Shown here in pieces: positions 6,470-51,536 of a stretch of 64,000 nucleotides of DNA. Numbering within the stretch: position 1 is the first letter of the stretch; the number at the start of each line of letters is the position of its first letter. The position numbers and the translations under genes were made by a program. The DNA is from Dryococelus australis (lineage: Eukaryota; Arthropoda; Insecta; Phasmatodea; Phasmatidae). Location of the stretch: positions 135,500,163 through 135,564,162 of the forward strand of contig CM057000.1 in assembly GCA_029891345.1 (NCBI GenBank), in the 5' to 3' direction. The notes under the pieces were generated by a model. It searched no databases, was not told the DNA's origin, and worked only from the letters and a program-made list of their open reading frames with translations.

Positions 6470-8170
6470 TTCCCAATGGCGGCCATTTTAATATTTAGGG
6501 TGATATGTCATGTTTCGGGCACCATTCAACCGATTTAAAACAAATATTTTTATGTTGCCAGAGCTTCGTGTAAGCATTAAATTTGGAGATGGATAGTGTT
6601 GCTAGTCTCCGCCATTATGGAAGATCGCACCGAATGAAAATATAAATATTTTACACTATATCTCTAAAATTGTTAAACTGATTCTTACCCAATTTGGAAT
6701 GTAAATAATACTGTGACAGGCCAGGTATACGTAAGTAATTTAACTCGATTAGGTACCTATATTCAAAATGGAGGCCATACAAATATTTTAGGTTTACTTG
6801 GTCCCTCTTCCATACAATTTAAAAAAATTCTACCAAATTTTGTACACAGAAAGTATCTATTAGAAGCATTATATATGCCAACATATAGCCATTCTCTAAT
6901 TCATTTTGTAAGACATTCAACCGATTTTAACCAAATTTGGCAAACAAGTAGTACGCCAGCAGATGATGTAAAATTGTATGTTGTAAGTATGTCACGCACT
7001 TATTTTAAAAATGGCGGCCATATAATAATTTAAGTATAGAGTGCTATATCGTCGAAGCCATGTAATCAATTACAACTTAACTTTGTATACTAGCGGTAGA
7101 TATTACGAACTATCAACTATATCTACAAAGAGCATCTTTTGTTCGCCATTTTTTAAGATAGCGTCATGTGAATAAATACATTTTTGTCATATCTCGGAAA
7201 CAATTGTCCGATTACTACCAAATTTGGCAAACAAAAAGCACTGCGGTCGATAATGTAAAATAGTATATTTCATGTATATATCAGAACCTCATTTTCAAAA
7301 TGGTGACTATATAGCCATCTTAGCATAGAATACTAAATCGTCGACAATTATCTTTGTATGCTAACAGTATATATTACAACTATCAACTGTATCTAGACGA
7401 ATAAGTTAAGTTTTATGTCACTTCTCGGAAAACAAACGGCAAACACTTACCAAATTTGACAAACAAATAGTATTGCTATTGGTAAATTTGAAGGTCAAGC
7501 ACACATTTCCAAAATGGCGGCTGTATGGCCATTTTAATTCAGAATGTTCTATTGTCGGAACCATGGAACCAAGTCCAAATTATTTTGTATGCTTGCAGTT
7601 TATATTACAACTATTAAATACGTCTACACGGAACATCTATTTTCCGCCATTTGTAAGATATGCCACACGAAAAAATAAAGTTTTTATGTAATATCTCGGG
7701 AAATAATTGACGGGTTCCTAGCAAATTCGGCAAAAAAAAATAGCACTGCAGCAGGTGGTGTAAACTGGTATGTTTTATGTATGTGAGGCACTTATTTTCA
7801 AAATAGTGGCTATATACATATTTTAGCTCTGTAAATTTGATTGACCAAACCAATTACAACTTAACCTTGTATGCTGGCAGTATATATTACAAACGCCAAA
7901 TTTTTTCTATACAGACCATAATTTCTCTGCTATTTTGTAAGCTATCCCCACAATAAAAACTAAGTTTTTATGTCATATCTCGGAAAACAATCAAATCATC
8001 ATTACCTAATTTGGCGAAGAAGTTGCACTGCGATATGCCTTTTAAATATATGTATTTTTTTTTTTAGGTGTGACAGACACGTATTTTAAGAACGGCGGTT
8101 ACAAAATAATTTTAGCATAGCGTGCTAAATTTACGAAACTGTGTAATTGAATTTATCTAAACTTTGCCTA
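6470..8170 (+). repeat. degenerate array of 213-291 bp units (family F, forward)
   Basis: Two landmark motifs recur in order. One resembles ccgattactaccaaatttgg (about 6688, 6931, 7218, 7450, 7721, 8005); the other resembles aaaatggcggccat (about 6477, 6768, 7012, 7299, 7512, 7800, 8090). A third, tatctcggaaaacaa, precedes each unit's first landmark. Spacing varies from 213 to 291 bp. Units are diverged but clearly related. Short frames here (6713-7033, 7473-7691) are by-products of the repeat. Confidence 0.85.
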
Positions 8171-19319: not shown

Positions 19320-20524
19320 TTTTGAATGAAGGTATTTATTAAGCTGAAATATTTACAAAACGCCTTCGTTTTGAAAATCAGTGTCTAAGCCTCTTAATGG
19401 CCGACCGTGGCGCTACTTTTGTGTGGAATTTGGTGAAAATAGGTTGGTTGTTTCCCGAGCATAAAAAGTTTCGTTGAATTTGGTTTGACCAACTTATCAA
19501 AATATTTATATGGCCGCTATTTTGAAAATCGATGTCTTACCCGCCTCAGTCATGTAAGTATACATGGCATACATGGTAGGCAAAATTTGGTGGAAATTAG
19601 TTTAATTTTTCCTGAAATATTGTAAAATGTTCCATTTTCTCACCAGACGCTCAGAGGATCTCTCTATGCATAATTGATGCTTCTAATGAATACTACTAGT
19701 AAACAAAATTAGGTTAAATTTTGATTAATTTTGTAATAGATACAACATAGTAACATAAATTATATATATTAACACCATTATATTCGTGCCTGCCACGCCA
19801 AAAATATGCTAGTTCACATAACCTAATCTAGCACTTCATGCGTGGAAGATTTGGTTGGAATCGGTTGATTGGTCCTCGAGATGTCATAAATCCTCCATTT
19901 TTGCATGTGACGATCTTCATTAATGGAGGATGAAAAGATTTTGTATTGGCACATTCGATAATTGTTATAGCTAGAGATTTGAAAGTTAAGCTAATATCGG
20001 TTATGTAGTTTTATAGATACAACATACTAGGCTCAATTGTTAAAATATCCGCCATTCTCAAAGTAAGTGTATGTCGTACTTAACATACAAATTCATATGG
20101 CCTACCACCTGCAAACGTCATCACCAAAATTGGAGAAAATTTGTTGATTGTTTCCCGAGATATGATATAAAAAATTGGAGGAATCTTACAAAATGGAGGA
20201 AAAATAGTTTCGGAGATATAACATAATGAGCAAAAATGTTCGTATAGTCGCCATTTTGATAATATATGTCTGGCCCACTCGAATAATATAAAATTACATG
20301 GCCTGCCGTAGTTCTGGTTGTTTGCCAAGTTCGGTGGGATATTTTCCTGGAGATTCGGTATGAAAGTTTCAATTGGTCATATGATGCTATCGTACAAAAT
20401 GGTGGACAAAAGAAACGTCGTGTGCACAGATTTGATGGTTGTAACACGTACTGTCAGCCTCCAAAGGTAAGTAGGAATTAATTACATGATTTCAACTATA
20501 TAGCATACTAAATTAAAATTATTA
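19320..20524 (-). repeat. family F degenerate array, reverse orientation, part 1
   Basis: The same landmarks as the 6470-8170 array, reverse-complemented: ggccgctattttgaaaat at about 19512, related motifs near 20045 and 20248, tttggtggaaatt-like strings, and tttcccgagatatg at about 20150. The array stops at the transposon inserted at 20525 and resumes after 23456. Confidence 0.8.
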
Positions 20525-23456
20525 AGGCGGTGAGTAACAAAACACCCCTTTCCCAAAAATTGAGTTACCAGTGTTAGTAGTGTTGAGTTTTCACATCTGC
20601 ATGTACTGTCATGATTGTAGGCAACAGAAGTGCTTGTTACCGCACTAAGCTGTTGTTACAAATGTAAGGTTGGCTACATAATTGCCTTTTCCAGCACATG
20701 ATGTGCAACAAAACTGTCCTTTTCAAGATCCAAATAGTCGCACCATATCTATCCTTTTCCAGCGTTGGCCATGTCTATATTTGTATCATTGGAATCAAGA
20801 CTGTCCATGATCTAGTATAAGAATATATTTGTCACTTTTGCATTACGATTAGATAGTACCGATTTTGAAATAAACGTTGCCTTTGAAAGTTTTTTTTTTT
20901 TTTAGTAAGTAGCTGATAACTAGTACGTTGGTAACATTGATCTCGAATTTATTTACACGGCAAAAGATAGTGTGGGGTTTGTTTGCAGCATACCTCTTCG
21001 TGCAGATAATTACTCATTTAAATAATATATATTTTGAAATGGATGTAAATATTAATGTGAAGGATGCTGGAGAAGAAGTAAGTAATGGGAGGAGTAGAAA
21101 GAGAAAGCGAGATGTTCGAAACTGGAAACAAACTAAGTGCAGAGAAGCAAGGTAAGATGTTTACTAGCACTTGCAGCTAAGGCCTATAAATTATTATATA
21201 TATGGACGTATATTGCCCTAAATAAAATTACCATTATCATTTCAGCTTGTTTATAATGTGTTATTAAACATATCTCTTTATTATTGTACTACAAACAGCA
21301 TGCTCTTTGCATCATGGCAATTGTGTAGGGGTGCTTATTGCATAACCTATTGCGAATGATAGTAATAAACCATGCAATTTTTGTTGTTTTAGATACAAGA
21401 CGAAATCCCTGTCAATAGCACCTCAATGTGACCAAGTCATTCAAGTGTTCTACAATAGGAGTGCAGGACATCAGAAGGTTTCACCGATCCTTCTACAATA
21501 CCTCAAGGAAAGTGCTTCAGGATGCTTTCAAGTACACCTCTCAAAGTAATCCTAGAACGACATCGAGAGCAAAAGTTCCAGGTTCTTCCAGAAAAACATC
21601 AACAAACTCCTATTTTATACAAACGAAACAAGGGCCGGGTATGGTGTGTGCCAAAACGTTTCTCGAAATTTTGTGAGTTTCACGATTTAGAGCGCAAAAT
21701 GTGCGTAGAATGCACCTTCAAACTGGTGCATCACCCCAAGAAAACAAGGGAGGAGACAGAAGCTCAAAGTTGTATGAAGACAGAAAAAAGCATGTCATTG
21801 CCTTCATAAAAGTTCTCAAACCTGTTGAATCACATTATGCACGTGACAAAAGTACGAGGCTCTATTTACCTTCTCATTTGAGCACTAAAAAGCTATGGCG
21901 GCTGTACAACAGTACCAAAAACAAAGAAAGTGGGTTAAATACCACTACTTTAGAGATATTTTCCTCTACAACATATAACATTAGTTTTAAATCTCCCTCT
22001 ACTGATGCATGTTCGACTTGCATTTAGCTGAAGTCACAGATAAAGCTAGCATTATCAAATTCAGTTCATAAGGATGAGTTGCTGATAAAGCTAAGAGTAC
22101 ATCATCTTAAGGCTTCAGATTTCTACACAATCTTGAAAAACGAAAATGAAAATGAACTGGAACTGTCATTTGATTGCCAAAAAAATTTGTTGTTGCTAAA
22201 GATTCCCGATCAGTCAGCGTATTATAGCAGGCAGCTTTATCAGTATAACCTATCTGTCGTGGGTGGGCATCCCAAAGCTAAAGAAACCAATGCTAACGTT
22301 ACTATATATGCGTGGCTTGAAAGTGAGCACTACAAGGGGTCAAATGAAACTTGCTCCGCAATTTGGGACTCTAGGAACAGCGTAAACCTTGAAGGCATTA
22401 GTAGTATTTTACTTTGTTCCCATGGCTGTCCCGGCCAGAATAAAAATACTATACTGATTGGGATGGTTACAAAGTGGTTAATTGAATCAGCTCCTAATGC
22501 CGTAAATAAAGTCACTGTACTATACCCTGCTGTAGGCCCTTTGTTCTAACCGCCCTACAGGATTTTCGGAAGGATCGGGAAGGCTATAAGAAAAAGAGGA
22601 ACCATCATTATTCTCGATGAGCACCTCTCAATTTTTAGAGAGTTTGGCCAAGTGAAAAGACTGGGACCTGAGGTACCTGTTCTGGATTGGAAACAAGCGG
22701 TTCAGGCGAATATCAAACCACTGGTAACTTGGCCTTTTTGGTTTTCGCAGACCAAGAGATTCATTCTCACCAAAACATCAAAAAAGACAGCGCTGGTGAA
22801 AGGGGAATTACATTAGAGGACAGACATTGCGAAGGGTGGGAAAAGCTTATCTTCAATCAATTCTACAGTGCGGGAAAGCAAAGTACCGGTGAAACGAGTT
22901 AAGCTTGCAGATGTCAGCAACTTGCTAGGTAAACATGATGGAACTGACTAGAGAGAACCCCCCACAGCTTGCATACTACAAAATGGTAATCGACGACACC
23001 AACATTGATCAAAATGAACCTGAATCAAATGACACACAAAACTGGGAAAACTTTGAAGGACATGAGGACTTGGTAGTTTAAAAATGTAGTTTTGTGTTCA
23101 TATACCTTTAATCTATACCACTCTTGAGAGATTATTGTTGAATAAATAATATTCCTTTTTCCGTACACACGAATCTTCTATTTACAGGACTGTCCTTTTC
23201 TACTCACTTTGGCAACACAACTGCCTATTTTATATAGTCGGCAACAAAACTCTCCTTCTCCCACATGTTTTCGTTAATAACTTAAAATCTAATGGGAGAA
23301 TTTTTATTTCCTTGTATAATACATTTAAATCCTGTATCAATGTACAGAGAAATTTTCACTACTGATTTCCTATTGGTACGCTTGCAGTGCGTTTTTCGTG
23401 ATTTTCCGAAAACGACCTATGTTGTAAAAGGAGAGTTTTGTTACTCACGGCCTCAG
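20525..23456 (+). mobile_element. 2.9-kb DNA transposon with TIRs, TTA flanks and subterminal repeats
   Basis: The left end aggcggtgagtaacaaaac and the right end, reading inward as aggccgtgagtaacaaaac, form TIRs of roughly 17-20 bp (the right end has two or three extra outer bases). TTA lies on both sides (20522-20524 and 23457-23459). Removing the element rejoins a family F repeat unit, so this is a clean insertion. Motifs like gcaacaaaactgtcctttt recur near both ends (about 20680, 20706, 20753, 23190, 23211, 23241). The only coding region is the transposase-like pseudogene at 21039-23081. The superfamily is not assigned. Confidence 0.85.
21039..23081 (+). pseudogene. transposase-like protein of the 2.9-kb element (DUF7869-like), broken
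   Basis: Resembles a large group of arthropod proteins usually called uncharacterised, with a DUF7869-type core (from memory, not a search). Likely start ATG 21039; exon 1 ends NWKQTKCREAR at a good donor (aag|gtaaga, 21151/21152). A 241-bp intron ends in a pyrimidine-rich tttag acceptor at 21392. A frameshift near 21430 leads into the main frame, which carries SFKCSTIGVQDIRRFHRSFY, VCAKTFLEIL, then PVESHYARDKSTRLYL, a Cys pair (TDACSTC), SFDCQKNLLL, YYSRQLYQYNL and CPGQNKN. It ends with an acidic tail and TAA at 23079-23081. In-frame stops: TGA 21674, TAG 22025, TAA 22547, TAG 22814 and TAG 22948; a second frameshift lies near 22955. The length would be about 600 residues. Protein function is inferred only from its position inside a TIR element. 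Confidence 0.75.
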
Positions 23457-23668
23457 TTATAAAGATGTCATTTTACAAAATATAGGTCACGCCTATTCAA
23501 AAACACACCACCTTATATCACCTGCTGCAGTACCAGTTTGCAAATTTGGTAGGAATCGGTTAGTTGTTTTACCGAGACGACGAAAATTTTATTTGATCTT
23601 GTTGCGCTATCTTACGAAATAGTGGACAAAATAGGCTCCGCGTAGACGCATATGATAGTTGCAATATA
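23457..23668 (-). repeat. family F array, reverse, part 2
   Basis: Continues the array interrupted at 20525: gatgtcattttacaaaatat, gcaaatttggtaggaatcgg and gttttaccgagacg are reverse-oriented family F landmarks. It is cut at 23668 by element E. Confidence 0.75.
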
Positions 23669-24573
23669 CAGTATGTCACAGAATGCGCGTATAAGAACCA
23701 CATCAGGTGAATCCTGAGTGAAAATGGGACGAAAATGTTAGTGCCGAAATATACGATGGAATTTTTCGGGTACAATGTCGCAACATAGCACAGAGTTAGT
23801 CCCTTTTTGCTCTCCACTGATATTGTACTACGTACCTTTGGCCTGGCCATCATGTTATGGGTGCGGGTGTGTTATGTTACTGGGATTCATGTTTGATTGA
23901 GGTACTGTTATTCCTCTTAGTATTATTATTATTATTATTATTTACGGTGGTAATTTCGGTAGTACCTGAATGTTTATTTCATGTTTGCACATTAAATGTG
24001 GGAATGTAAATGCATCTGTTTTAGTTGATACCGATGTGCACAGGTCCACATTTATAAAGGAAACGTGACAAGGGCACATTAAGAAACCAATCTGTCAAAC
24101 GATGCCAATGTAACAGCTGTTTTAACTGATCTTGCCAGCTCACCTACTGCTGTCCTCCTACCACGACAAGTGTGCTAAGCTTCCAGTGAGATGTTTCCAG
24201 TCACTCGACTTCAACTGGCGATTAGGGCGCAACATAACACATGGCATGACATTGACCGTGATATGATAAATGGGCTTCCATTACTTGTTCATTTCACGTC
24301 CAGGTATTCTTATAAATGTTACGTAAACTACACGTTGCTAAATTTTGTGGACTGGCCGGGATTTGAACCAGCGCCTATAATATGATGGCCAAAACCGCGG
24401 GAGAACGATTTCAGTGCAGCGCAAGAGGGGACTAACTCCGTGCGGTGTTGTCACATTGTGCACAAAAAATGCCATCGTGCGACATTTTGCCATTAGCATT
24501 TCCGACTTCCGTCACCAATTTTGCTCAGGATTCAAGTGGAACGGTACTTATGCGCGCGTTTTCAGACACTCAG
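23669..24573. mobile_element. element E, 0.9 kb with TIRs of about 150 bp, TATA target duplication
   Basis: The left arm (about 23669-23850) and the reverse complement of the right arm (about 24380-24573) align over long stretches: aatgcgcgtataagaacc/aacgcgcgcataagtacc, gaatcctgag, and a shared gagttagtcccctttt-like block. TATA occurs on both sides (23665-23668 and 24574-24577). Other family F units read ggcagtatatattacaa at this point, so the empty site can be recognised. The middle has no coding sequence. The right arm includes a box-B-like ggttcaaatcccgg on the minus strand near 24360, probably fortuitous. Confidence 0.75.
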
Positions 24574-25425
24574 TATACTGCCGGCATACCAAATAAAGTT
24601 GGAACTGATTACATGGGTTCAGCGAGAGGCCTATAGATTAGGTACTTATCTAAAGCATCTAAAGCAGGTATATAGCAACCATTTTGAAAATAAGTGCATG
24701 ACCTACTTAAAACATACCAGTTTTCGTCGGCTGCCGCAGTTTTACTTGTTTGACGATTTGATAGGAATCGGTTAATTGTTTCCCGAGATATGACAAAATA
24801 AATTAATTTATTTGTGCTGCACTAAGTTACAAAATGTGATTGTGTGTTAGCATATACGATGCTTGTAATAAAGGTTTTCAGCGTACAAAATTTGGTTGAA
24901 ATTGGTTAAACGCTATGGTAGATATACAAAATAAACCTAAAAATATTTGCGTTGCCGGCATTTTGAAAGTAAGTGCCTAATACATGAGTCGCGTGCGTTT
25001 ATATGTCCTACCGTAGTATTACTTACTTGCCAAATTTCACGAGGATTGTTTGAGTAGGTTTTGAGATAACATGTCAAGGCTTTATGTTTTCATGAAGTGC
25101 TATCATAAAAAATTGCGGGCGAACGACATCGCTTTATATGCTGCTTACACGAGGCATTGCCTGCATACTTGATTTGGTTTAAATCGGTTGAAAAGTTCCC
25201 GAGATAAAACATATCGCCCTAAATTTTAAATTGGCTGCCATTTCTGTATGTAGCGCCTGCATGGTTTATAATTGTGGAAGTCAGAATTATTTACTATGTG
25301 CTATGTGTGTACAGAGTTTGGTAAAATTCGGGTCACCCGTTCAAAAATTTTAAGGGGAAGGGACACGCGCACATGTAGACACAGACCAGACGCCAACACA
25401 CACACAGACGAACAGACAGGAATGT
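24574..25425 (-). repeat. family F array, reverse, part 3, ending in a CA/GACA-rich tract
   Basis: Further reverse units have landmarks at about 24675, 24955 and 25235 (attttgaaaataagtgc-like) and tttcccgagatatgac at about 24778. The array ends near 25350 and is followed at 25370-25425 by an ACACACAGACGAACAGACAGG-type tract that may mark the end of the parent element. Confidence 0.75.
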
Positions 25426-50335: not shown

Positions 50336-51100
50336 CGTAACGAATACGTGGAAATAAATTTTCAAACGAAATGGGCAACGAGATTTGTTCTTTCTTAATC
50401 TTCCCCTTGACGAAGTGCTCCACGAAAATTATTAATGCTATTCAGCAAGTATCTTAACAAAACTGTTCAAGTTCCACGTGTGTACTAATTTATTTTGGAA
50501 TGTTTTTTTTTCCCCTGGTTTGCGATCTGCACCAACGAGTAAAATCATCGATGGTAGGTGACACATTCGCGCGGGATAAGATAACGTCGATGAATGAAGC
50601 GCCATTCTGTGTCGCAGGCATCTCTAGAGGTAAGGCGGCGTGTGGTTGGCTTTCGACCGTAATAGGAGGTTACTGGAGAAGCTTCCCTTCTCTCTCTCTC
50701 TCTCGCAGCCAACACTTTTCCCTCCGTTCCAGTTGCCCTCCGGCACCTCAGCATATAACGACGTCAACGTAGGCGAGCACCCTTTTAGAGCTGGAAGGTT
50801 TCACTGCGAACATTGTTGGGTACTTGAGTAAAGAAAATAACGAGCTGTTCGGTTGAGTTCCTGCTAAAAATTTTTTAGCCAACTGCCTACTCATTTTTGT
50901 TAGGCTAATATGTAACTTTGCGAGGAAAGGTATTAACGATGGTGGCCAGCTTAACGTCATCTTAGCCATTCATTTTAAATTATACAGCAACATCTTATTA
51001 CAACAAGGAACTTGCGCTATTCAAACAAATGCATTTACATCATCCATATTTTGCCTGCCATTTCCACCTTGCAACGACAGGATTTAAAAATGCAATAAAA
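50336..51100. other. spacer, CpG-richer at 50560-50800
   Basis: Includes a short (CT)n run at 50690-50705. No gene recognised. Confidence 0.45.
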
Positions 51101-51536
51101 ATCAATTACCATCAAAGAAACTGTATGGAAACGTACTTCGTAGCTGTAGCATGTGGGACGAGAACGCTAATAATCAAGTACCATCAAAGAAACTGAACGG
51201 AATCGTACTTCGTAGCTGCAGCATGTGGGAAGAGAACGCTAATAATTAAGTACCATCAAAGAAACTGTATGGAATCGTACTTCGTAGCTGCAGCATGTGG
51301 GAAGAGAACTCTAATAATTAAGTACCATCAAAGAAACTGTATGGAATCGTACTTCGTAGCTGTAGCATGTGGGAAGAGAACTCTAATAATTAAGTACCAT
51401 CAAAGAAACTGTATGGAATCGTACTTCGTAGCTGCAGCATGTGGGAAGAGAACGCTAATAATTAAGTACCATCAAAGAAACTGTATGGAATCGTACTTCG
51501 TAGCTGTAGCATGTGGGAAGAGAACTCTAATAATCA
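51101..51536 (+). repeat. 72-bp tandem repeat, six units, open reading frame
   Basis: Units start at 51108, 51180, 51252, 51324, 51396 and 51468. Seventy-two bp is 24 codons; from 51269 an open frame reads repeats beginning MESYFVAAACGKRT. Units alternate tgcagc and tgtagc in the last four copies, giving a 144-bp higher-order period (Ala/Val alternation). No promoter or domain suggests it is translated. Confidence 0.95.

Follow-up and report, generated by a model that had tools for sequence, protein, structure and literature searches.

The genome of the Lord Howe Island stick insect, Dryococelus australis, carries on contig CM057000.1 (scaffold C8 in this analysis) an insertion of about 2.9 kb that lies within a dispersed repeat and contains the remains of a spliced gene for a protein of the DUF7869 family, a domain of unknown function in Pfam (PF25273). 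Coordinates are given as positions within the window, the 64-kb stretch of DNA that was analysed (positions 135,500,163 to 135,564,162 of the contig). The insertion is real, and its limits are precise to a few bases. Its inverted ends are marked by GGCGGTGAGTAACAAAAC at 20526-20543 on the plus strand and GGCCGTGAGTAACAAAAC at 23435-23452 on the minus strand; this 18-mer gives two matches at up to three mismatches, with 0.07 expected. A subterminal motif derived from the element itself, AACAAAACTCTCCTTTTC, is found at six sites at up to four mismatches, every one within 320 bp of the ends, versus 0.075 sites in 200 shuffles. TTA stands on either flank (20522-20524 and 23457-23459). The features of the insertion are listed below, where P0001 denotes the closest protein relative and the bordering bases are given for two readings of the target duplication, 4 bp or 2 bp.

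20520..20523, tetramer TATT at the left target site; on the 4-bp reading it is the left duplication, on the 2-bp reading only 20521-20522 are duplicated and the element opens with 20523
20524..20551, plus strand, left terminal inverted repeat (TIR), 28 nt, of which 24 match the right end; it opens with A, and the family mostly has G
20536..20759, plus strand, subterminal motif on the left side, three sites (20536, 20707 and 20742)
21039..21151, plus strand, exon 1 of the DUF7869 gene, including a basic RKRKR stretch
21152..21392, plus strand, intron, bordered by GT...AG
21393..~23081, plus strand, exon 2, predicted transposase core and tail, broken
22160..22640, plus strand, predicted catalytic core, compared with P0001 positions 241, 324, 369 and 376
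23183..23442, subterminal motif on the right side, three sites (23183 plus, 23243 plus and 23425 minus)
23212, additional 75% copy of the right subterminal motif
23427..23454, minus strand, right TIR, GAGGCCGTGAGTAACAAAAC...
23455..23458, tetramer AGTT at the right target site; on the 4-bp reading it is the right duplication, on the 2-bp reading the element closes with 23455 and only 23456-23457 are duplicated

The junction between the two exons is also spanned by a predicted Dryococelus protein, P0116 (residues CREARYKAKSL). Among the 120 protein relatives listed of the 189 found, the closest, P0001, is 62% identical across 88% of the query; other relatives are 595 (P0005) and 611 (P0027) residues long. 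P0001, P0005 and P0027 score 37.8, 39 and 40 bits, respectively, against PF25273, for which the gathering cut-off is 26. The broken pieces of the window gene, searched by themselves against Pfam, do not match PF25273 at E ≤1, and the copy is assigned to the family because of its 62% identity to P0001. Exon 2 contains five in-frame stops (21674, 22025, 22547, 22814, and 22949), and the frame is broken near 21430 and near 22950. The residues at P0001 positions 241, 324, 369, and 376 are D, H, Y, and G: the first D is retained (FDCQKN), the second is replaced by H (SHGC), the third by Y, and the following E by G, so that three of the four conserved acidic residues are substituted. Because of the stops, the frame breaks and the replaced catalytic residues, this gene copy is dead. 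A different DUF7869 copy of the genome (L056) likewise has H in place of the second catalytic D, and both copies are altered elsewhere as well. A second long frame was not seen within the 2.9-kb unit.

The repeat that hosts the insertion has at least 42 matches in the genome, including the two flanks in the window (scored: 40 of 786 first-look candidates). The joined flanks are crossed by nine alignments to other copies of this repeat, which thus represent empty sites; one comes from the window itself (7171-6908) and eight from six other loci (L045-L050). All nine run without a gap for at least 5 bases left of the junction and 17 right of it; for eight, the ungapped stretch on the left reaches 75 bases or more. 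The copy at window 7171 carries TATT at the position of the left tetramer. All readings of the duplication rebuild the same target, and therefore the empty site cannot tell them apart. Pieces of the host repeat occupy window positions 6908-7776, 20000-20519, and 23459-24835, with related pieces nearby in both orientations.

Searched at the protein level, the genome yields at least 137 matches (135 of 3,453 first-look candidates were scored), and 53 distinct DUF7869 loci were examined, first a set of 38 and later a check set of 15, with two places found under double names (L018 = L056 and L029 = L057) counted once. An inverted repeat between the flanks scoring at least 18 is present in 20 of the 38 first-set loci, as against none in the mirror and complement controls and 4 in the direct one (each of 38). 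Ends of one type, opening with GAG and with the approximate consensus GAG(G/T)N(G/C)(C/T)(C/T)NANTTNCAAA, occur on both flanks of 17 of the 38 first-set loci and of 6 of the 15 check-set loci (23/53 in total), and delimit elements of 2,615 to 3,570 bp. Most of these copies are decayed; at least one stop is present in 52 of the 53 loci, counted over aligned stretches that may overrun the end of the gene. Four close relatives of the window element, on C1, C5, C6, and C7, are about 79–86% identical to it across long stretches. All four keep the right end, in which TC(A/G) extends past ...C(C/T); a recognisable left end was found only in the C6 relative (L014), and not in those on C1, C7, and C5.

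The bare 18-mer, searched genome-wide, is not enriched: 99 + 75 matches versus 101 + 108 for its reversed control. At five places matching it with one mismatch (L003, L005-L008), no similarity to the element continues past the end itself. One region, G000:C5:3021471-3023765, has the appearance of a tandem array, with places about 134 bp apart bearing GGCCGGGAGTAA(C/T)AAAAC or close variants. This is a look-alike of the transposon end, and two of the 18-mer places, L006 and L007, belong to the 134-bp-spaced array.

The target duplication was studied at the 23 loci with a GAG-type pair, the other 30 being excluded. Boundaries were placed by visual inspection at the inverted repeat's GAG column, with altered bases tolerated there (L013, L017, L021, L028, L037, L065, and L066; for L021 the example of L017 was followed), and the expected agreement was obtained by re-pairing of flanks. 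At this boundary, the four flanking bases are identical on both sides in 8 of 17 first-set loci (2.5 expected) and in 3 of 6 check-set loci (1.0 expected; 3–4% of re-pairings reach that), giving 11 of 23 in total (3.3 expected; 0 of 5,000 re-pairings), and agreement over 2, 3, 5, or 6 bases shows no excess. The flanks follow the consensus A-W-W-T, mostly as ATAT, ATTT, AATT, or AAAT, with the variants ACTT and GTAT. Since A and T almost invariably occupy the outer positions of the tetramer, a 2-bp duplication with ends reading TGAG...CTCA is possible as well. With the boundary at TGAG, the two middle bases match in 12 of 17 (4.6 expected) and 4 of 6 (1.5 expected) loci of the two sets, or 16 of 23 together (5.4 expected); they are TA in 8 of these 16 loci and TT, AT, AA, or CT in the remainder. 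An outer base is mismatched in 10 of the 23 loci, and in 9 of these the odd base falls where the 2-bp reading would leave plain flank; in the tenth, L052, both sides are odd. This pattern therefore leans to 2 bp, in a small sample in which several flanks are simple repeats. At L022 and L059, TATGTAT precedes the left end and TATATAT the right one, which reflects either a common target taste or a longer terminus of a subfamily.

From the family terminus (T)GAG and the TC(A/G) at the right end of the close relatives, it follows that the window element would extend from 20524 to 23454 (GAG; 2,931 bp) or from 20523 to 23455 (TGAG). An earlier note on this DNA, made from the letters alone, had placed the ends at 20525 and 23456, and these positions are now superseded by the relatives and the 23 loci. 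The TTA that it reported on both sides is present at this copy, but the rule of the family is 4 or 2 bp inside AWWT. Similarly, its spliced gene of about 600 codons agrees in extent with P0005 and P0027, but this copy is broken by the stops and frame shifts given above. Its insertion of about 2.9 kb with inverted ends, its arrays of subterminal motifs and its rebuilt empty site are all borne out by the counts given above.

The predicted fold of DUF7869 matches the RNase H-like catalytic cores of integrase, Mos1, and Metnase. Four acidic residues, D241, D324, D369, and E376 in P0001 numbering, are conserved among the relatives, with both D369 and E376 invariant, and all four are retained in 23 of the 53 genomic loci. 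Range arithmetic from the ends of the Mos1 and Metnase matches points to D369 as the candidate third catalytic residue. Taken together, the predicted fold and the conserved D, D, D, and E indicate that DUF7869 is very probably a DDE/D transposase. A profile search of the PDB by sequence returned three matches, all with E >0.6. When Foldseek was run with the window's own core, the best match was IstA (weak, E 1.2e-3), and a viral structure library gave weak matches to one herpesvirus protein (E 9e-4) and to an IS4-like one (1.5e-3). Relatives in viral and in bacterial or archaeal contigs were seen as pattern matches only, none of them confirmed.

Thus, the feature in the window can be identified with high confidence as a DNA transposon of the cut-and-paste kind in an inactive copy, with a single spliced gene that encoded the transposase, the DUF7869 protein. 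To judge by fold and anatomy, the transposase would bind to the inverted ends and to the subterminal motifs, pair the two ends, cleave at (T)GAG/CTC(A) with a DDE/D active site of the RNase H-like type, and join them to an AWWT target that has been cut with a stagger of 2 or 4 bp, after which gap repair would leave the short duplication. As regards the other claims of the earlier note, membership in DUF7869 is upheld by the Pfam scores of the intact relatives, and the fold prediction came out in favour of an RNase H-like DDE/D core. The view of the insertion as one mobile unit, which ties this protein to defined ends, holds at other DUF7869 loci. Its label 'unclassified' for the protein is placed in doubt by the AWWT signature, which matches that printed for Sola2. 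The expectation that ends and gene occur together had a mixed outcome: the right end accompanies the gene in all four close relatives, but the left end in only one of them, the 18-mer is not enriched, and many loci show no GAG-type pair.

Several points weigh against this identification. No GAG-type pair of ends was found within the stretch read at 30 of the 53 DUF7869 loci, which fits, without proving, the expectation for old or truncated copies. At a score of at least 12, the contrast between inverted repeats and controls is weak (32 of 38 loci versus 17 mirror, 12 complement, and 27 direct). A subfamily comprising L020, L024, and L042 has ends that start with CTGTC or similar, e.g., CTGTCA(A/T)CCATTTGCAAAAGGGGACAA, and a clear duplication was not found in these three. 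Agreeing flanks in the first set were already known when the GAG register was picked, which leaves the six check-set loci as the only ones independent of that choice, and the duplication may be 4 bp (GAG ends) or, with some preference, 2 bp (TGAG ends), both inside AWWT. The window's own tetramers, TATT and AGTT, agree at 2 of 4 positions (1 of the middle 2), whereas TTA agrees at 3 of 3; in L036, the tetramers agree at 1 of 4. Like the subfamily just named, both of these pairs are at odds with either width. Foldseek alone gave no clear match, the best being a carboxylase at E 6e-4 and IstA at 1.6e-3. Finally, the DNA-level evidence comes from one genome, and the mechanism is deduced from fold and anatomy.

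As for the place of these elements among known transposons, the Sola2 branch of the Sola superfamily, reportedly first described by Bao et al. in 2009, appears to be the likeliest home by a modest preference, the likeness being to printed descriptions. It is the best guess because AWWT is the duplication printed for Sola2: in a study of amoebae, 4-bp duplications of Sola2 elements are given as AWWT, with ATAT, AAAT, and ATTT (PMC3627910). A Sola account describes a DDD transposase, 4-bp duplications, and lengths of mostly 2–9 kb (PMC10741241); the DUF7869 elements, with TIRs of more than 11 bp, fall within the printed range of size and TIR length, and a DDD-type triad (D241, D324, and D369) is possible in them. 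A rather less probable alternative is that the DUF7869 elements form a superfamily separate from Sola and duplicate 2 or 4 bp inside AWWT. The fit to the printed Sola2 targets and Sola sizes speaks against it. In its favour are the mismatch pattern (9 of 10 loci), which suits a 2-bp duplication better than the 4 bp of Sola, and the E seven residues past the third D, which is invariant along with D369, whereas Sola is described as DDD. Moreover, the comparison with Sola is by printed description, and 1.56 Gb of repeats in the host genome could not be classified, according to the genome paper (PMC10268593). The DUF7869 proteins have about 550–610 residues versus 888 in the printed amoeba Sola2 transposase. 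In a slightly more doubtful version, DUF7869 would define an unrecognised, arthropod-abundant superfamily of eukaryotic cut-and-paste elements with TGAG termini, a 2-bp duplication in AWWT, and a D-D-D/E RNase H core, which would sit hidden among the unclassified repeats of insect genomes.

Other explanations are far less probable. That DUF7869 is a passenger gene in elements mobilised by a different transposase is very unlikely: its function is a predicted one, but the 2.9-kb unit shows no other long frame, and the predicted fold and acidic residues are those of a transposase. PIF/Harbinger elements produce 3-bp TTA/TWA duplications, and a TTA- or TTAA-targeting element of the PIF/Harbinger, piggyBac, or Kolobok type is, if anything, even less to be expected. 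Indeed, ATTATTAA stands before the left end, TTA agrees at both sides of the window copy, and GA...TC would suit the 5'-RR...YY-3' termini that a Kolobok description gives, along with a C/DxxH motif between the second D and E (PMC9587614). However, 3-bp agreement is found in 0 of 23 loci at the GAG boundary and in at most 1 of 17 over the seven registers tried, TTAA in 0 of 46 flank tetramers, and the C/DxxH motif in only 1 of 115 relatives, being absent in 114. A TTA or TTAA duplication as the family rule was rejected on the 23 loci. With Kolobok there remain in common the 5'-RR termini and a DDE/D transposase. Finally, a host gene or gene copy lying between chance inverted repeats is hardly credible; the unenriched 18-mer would suit it, but the ends are common to relatives, nine alignments cross the empty site, and family-wide ends come with agreeing flanks.

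In broader terms, the elements agree with TIR DNA transposons that carry a DDE/D transposase, both in their ends and duplications (23 of 53 loci with ends) and, by predicted fold and conservation, in an RNase H-like core with three acidic residues. Tc1/mariner transposases (Mos1, Metnase/SETMAR) are neighbours of the predicted core in fold and a 2-bp duplication may be shared with them, but the two-base unit is TA in only half of the agreeing loci, and a likeness in sequence did not show up in the PDB profile search. The resemblance to retroviral integrases is one of fold only, with no long terminal repeats or reverse transcriptase seen in the unit.

Elsewhere in the window, tandem arrays lie at 2523-2877 (69-bp unit, 5 copies) and 51096-51534 (72-bp unit, 6 copies), and a 15-bp tandem repeat of 17 copies at 1487-1743 falls within an open frame. 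The frame preceding the latter resembles a mariner-type fragment, but a Pfam search gave nothing.

In the literature collection searched for DUF7869 or PF25273, no paper naming either was found; five hits contain other strings and, to judge by their titles, seem to be unrelated. One deposited protein of the family, from Nesidiocoris tenuis, is already named 'transposon protein' among the matches listed, and annotators had therefore tied the family to transposons earlier. Many insect proteins now labelled 'uncharacterised' or DUF7869 could be renamed transposases, and such relabelling would give cleaner gene counts and help with repeat classification. With its ends, AWWT rule, and subterminal motifs described, the DUF7869 family becomes easier to annotate and can be tested in standard excision assays.
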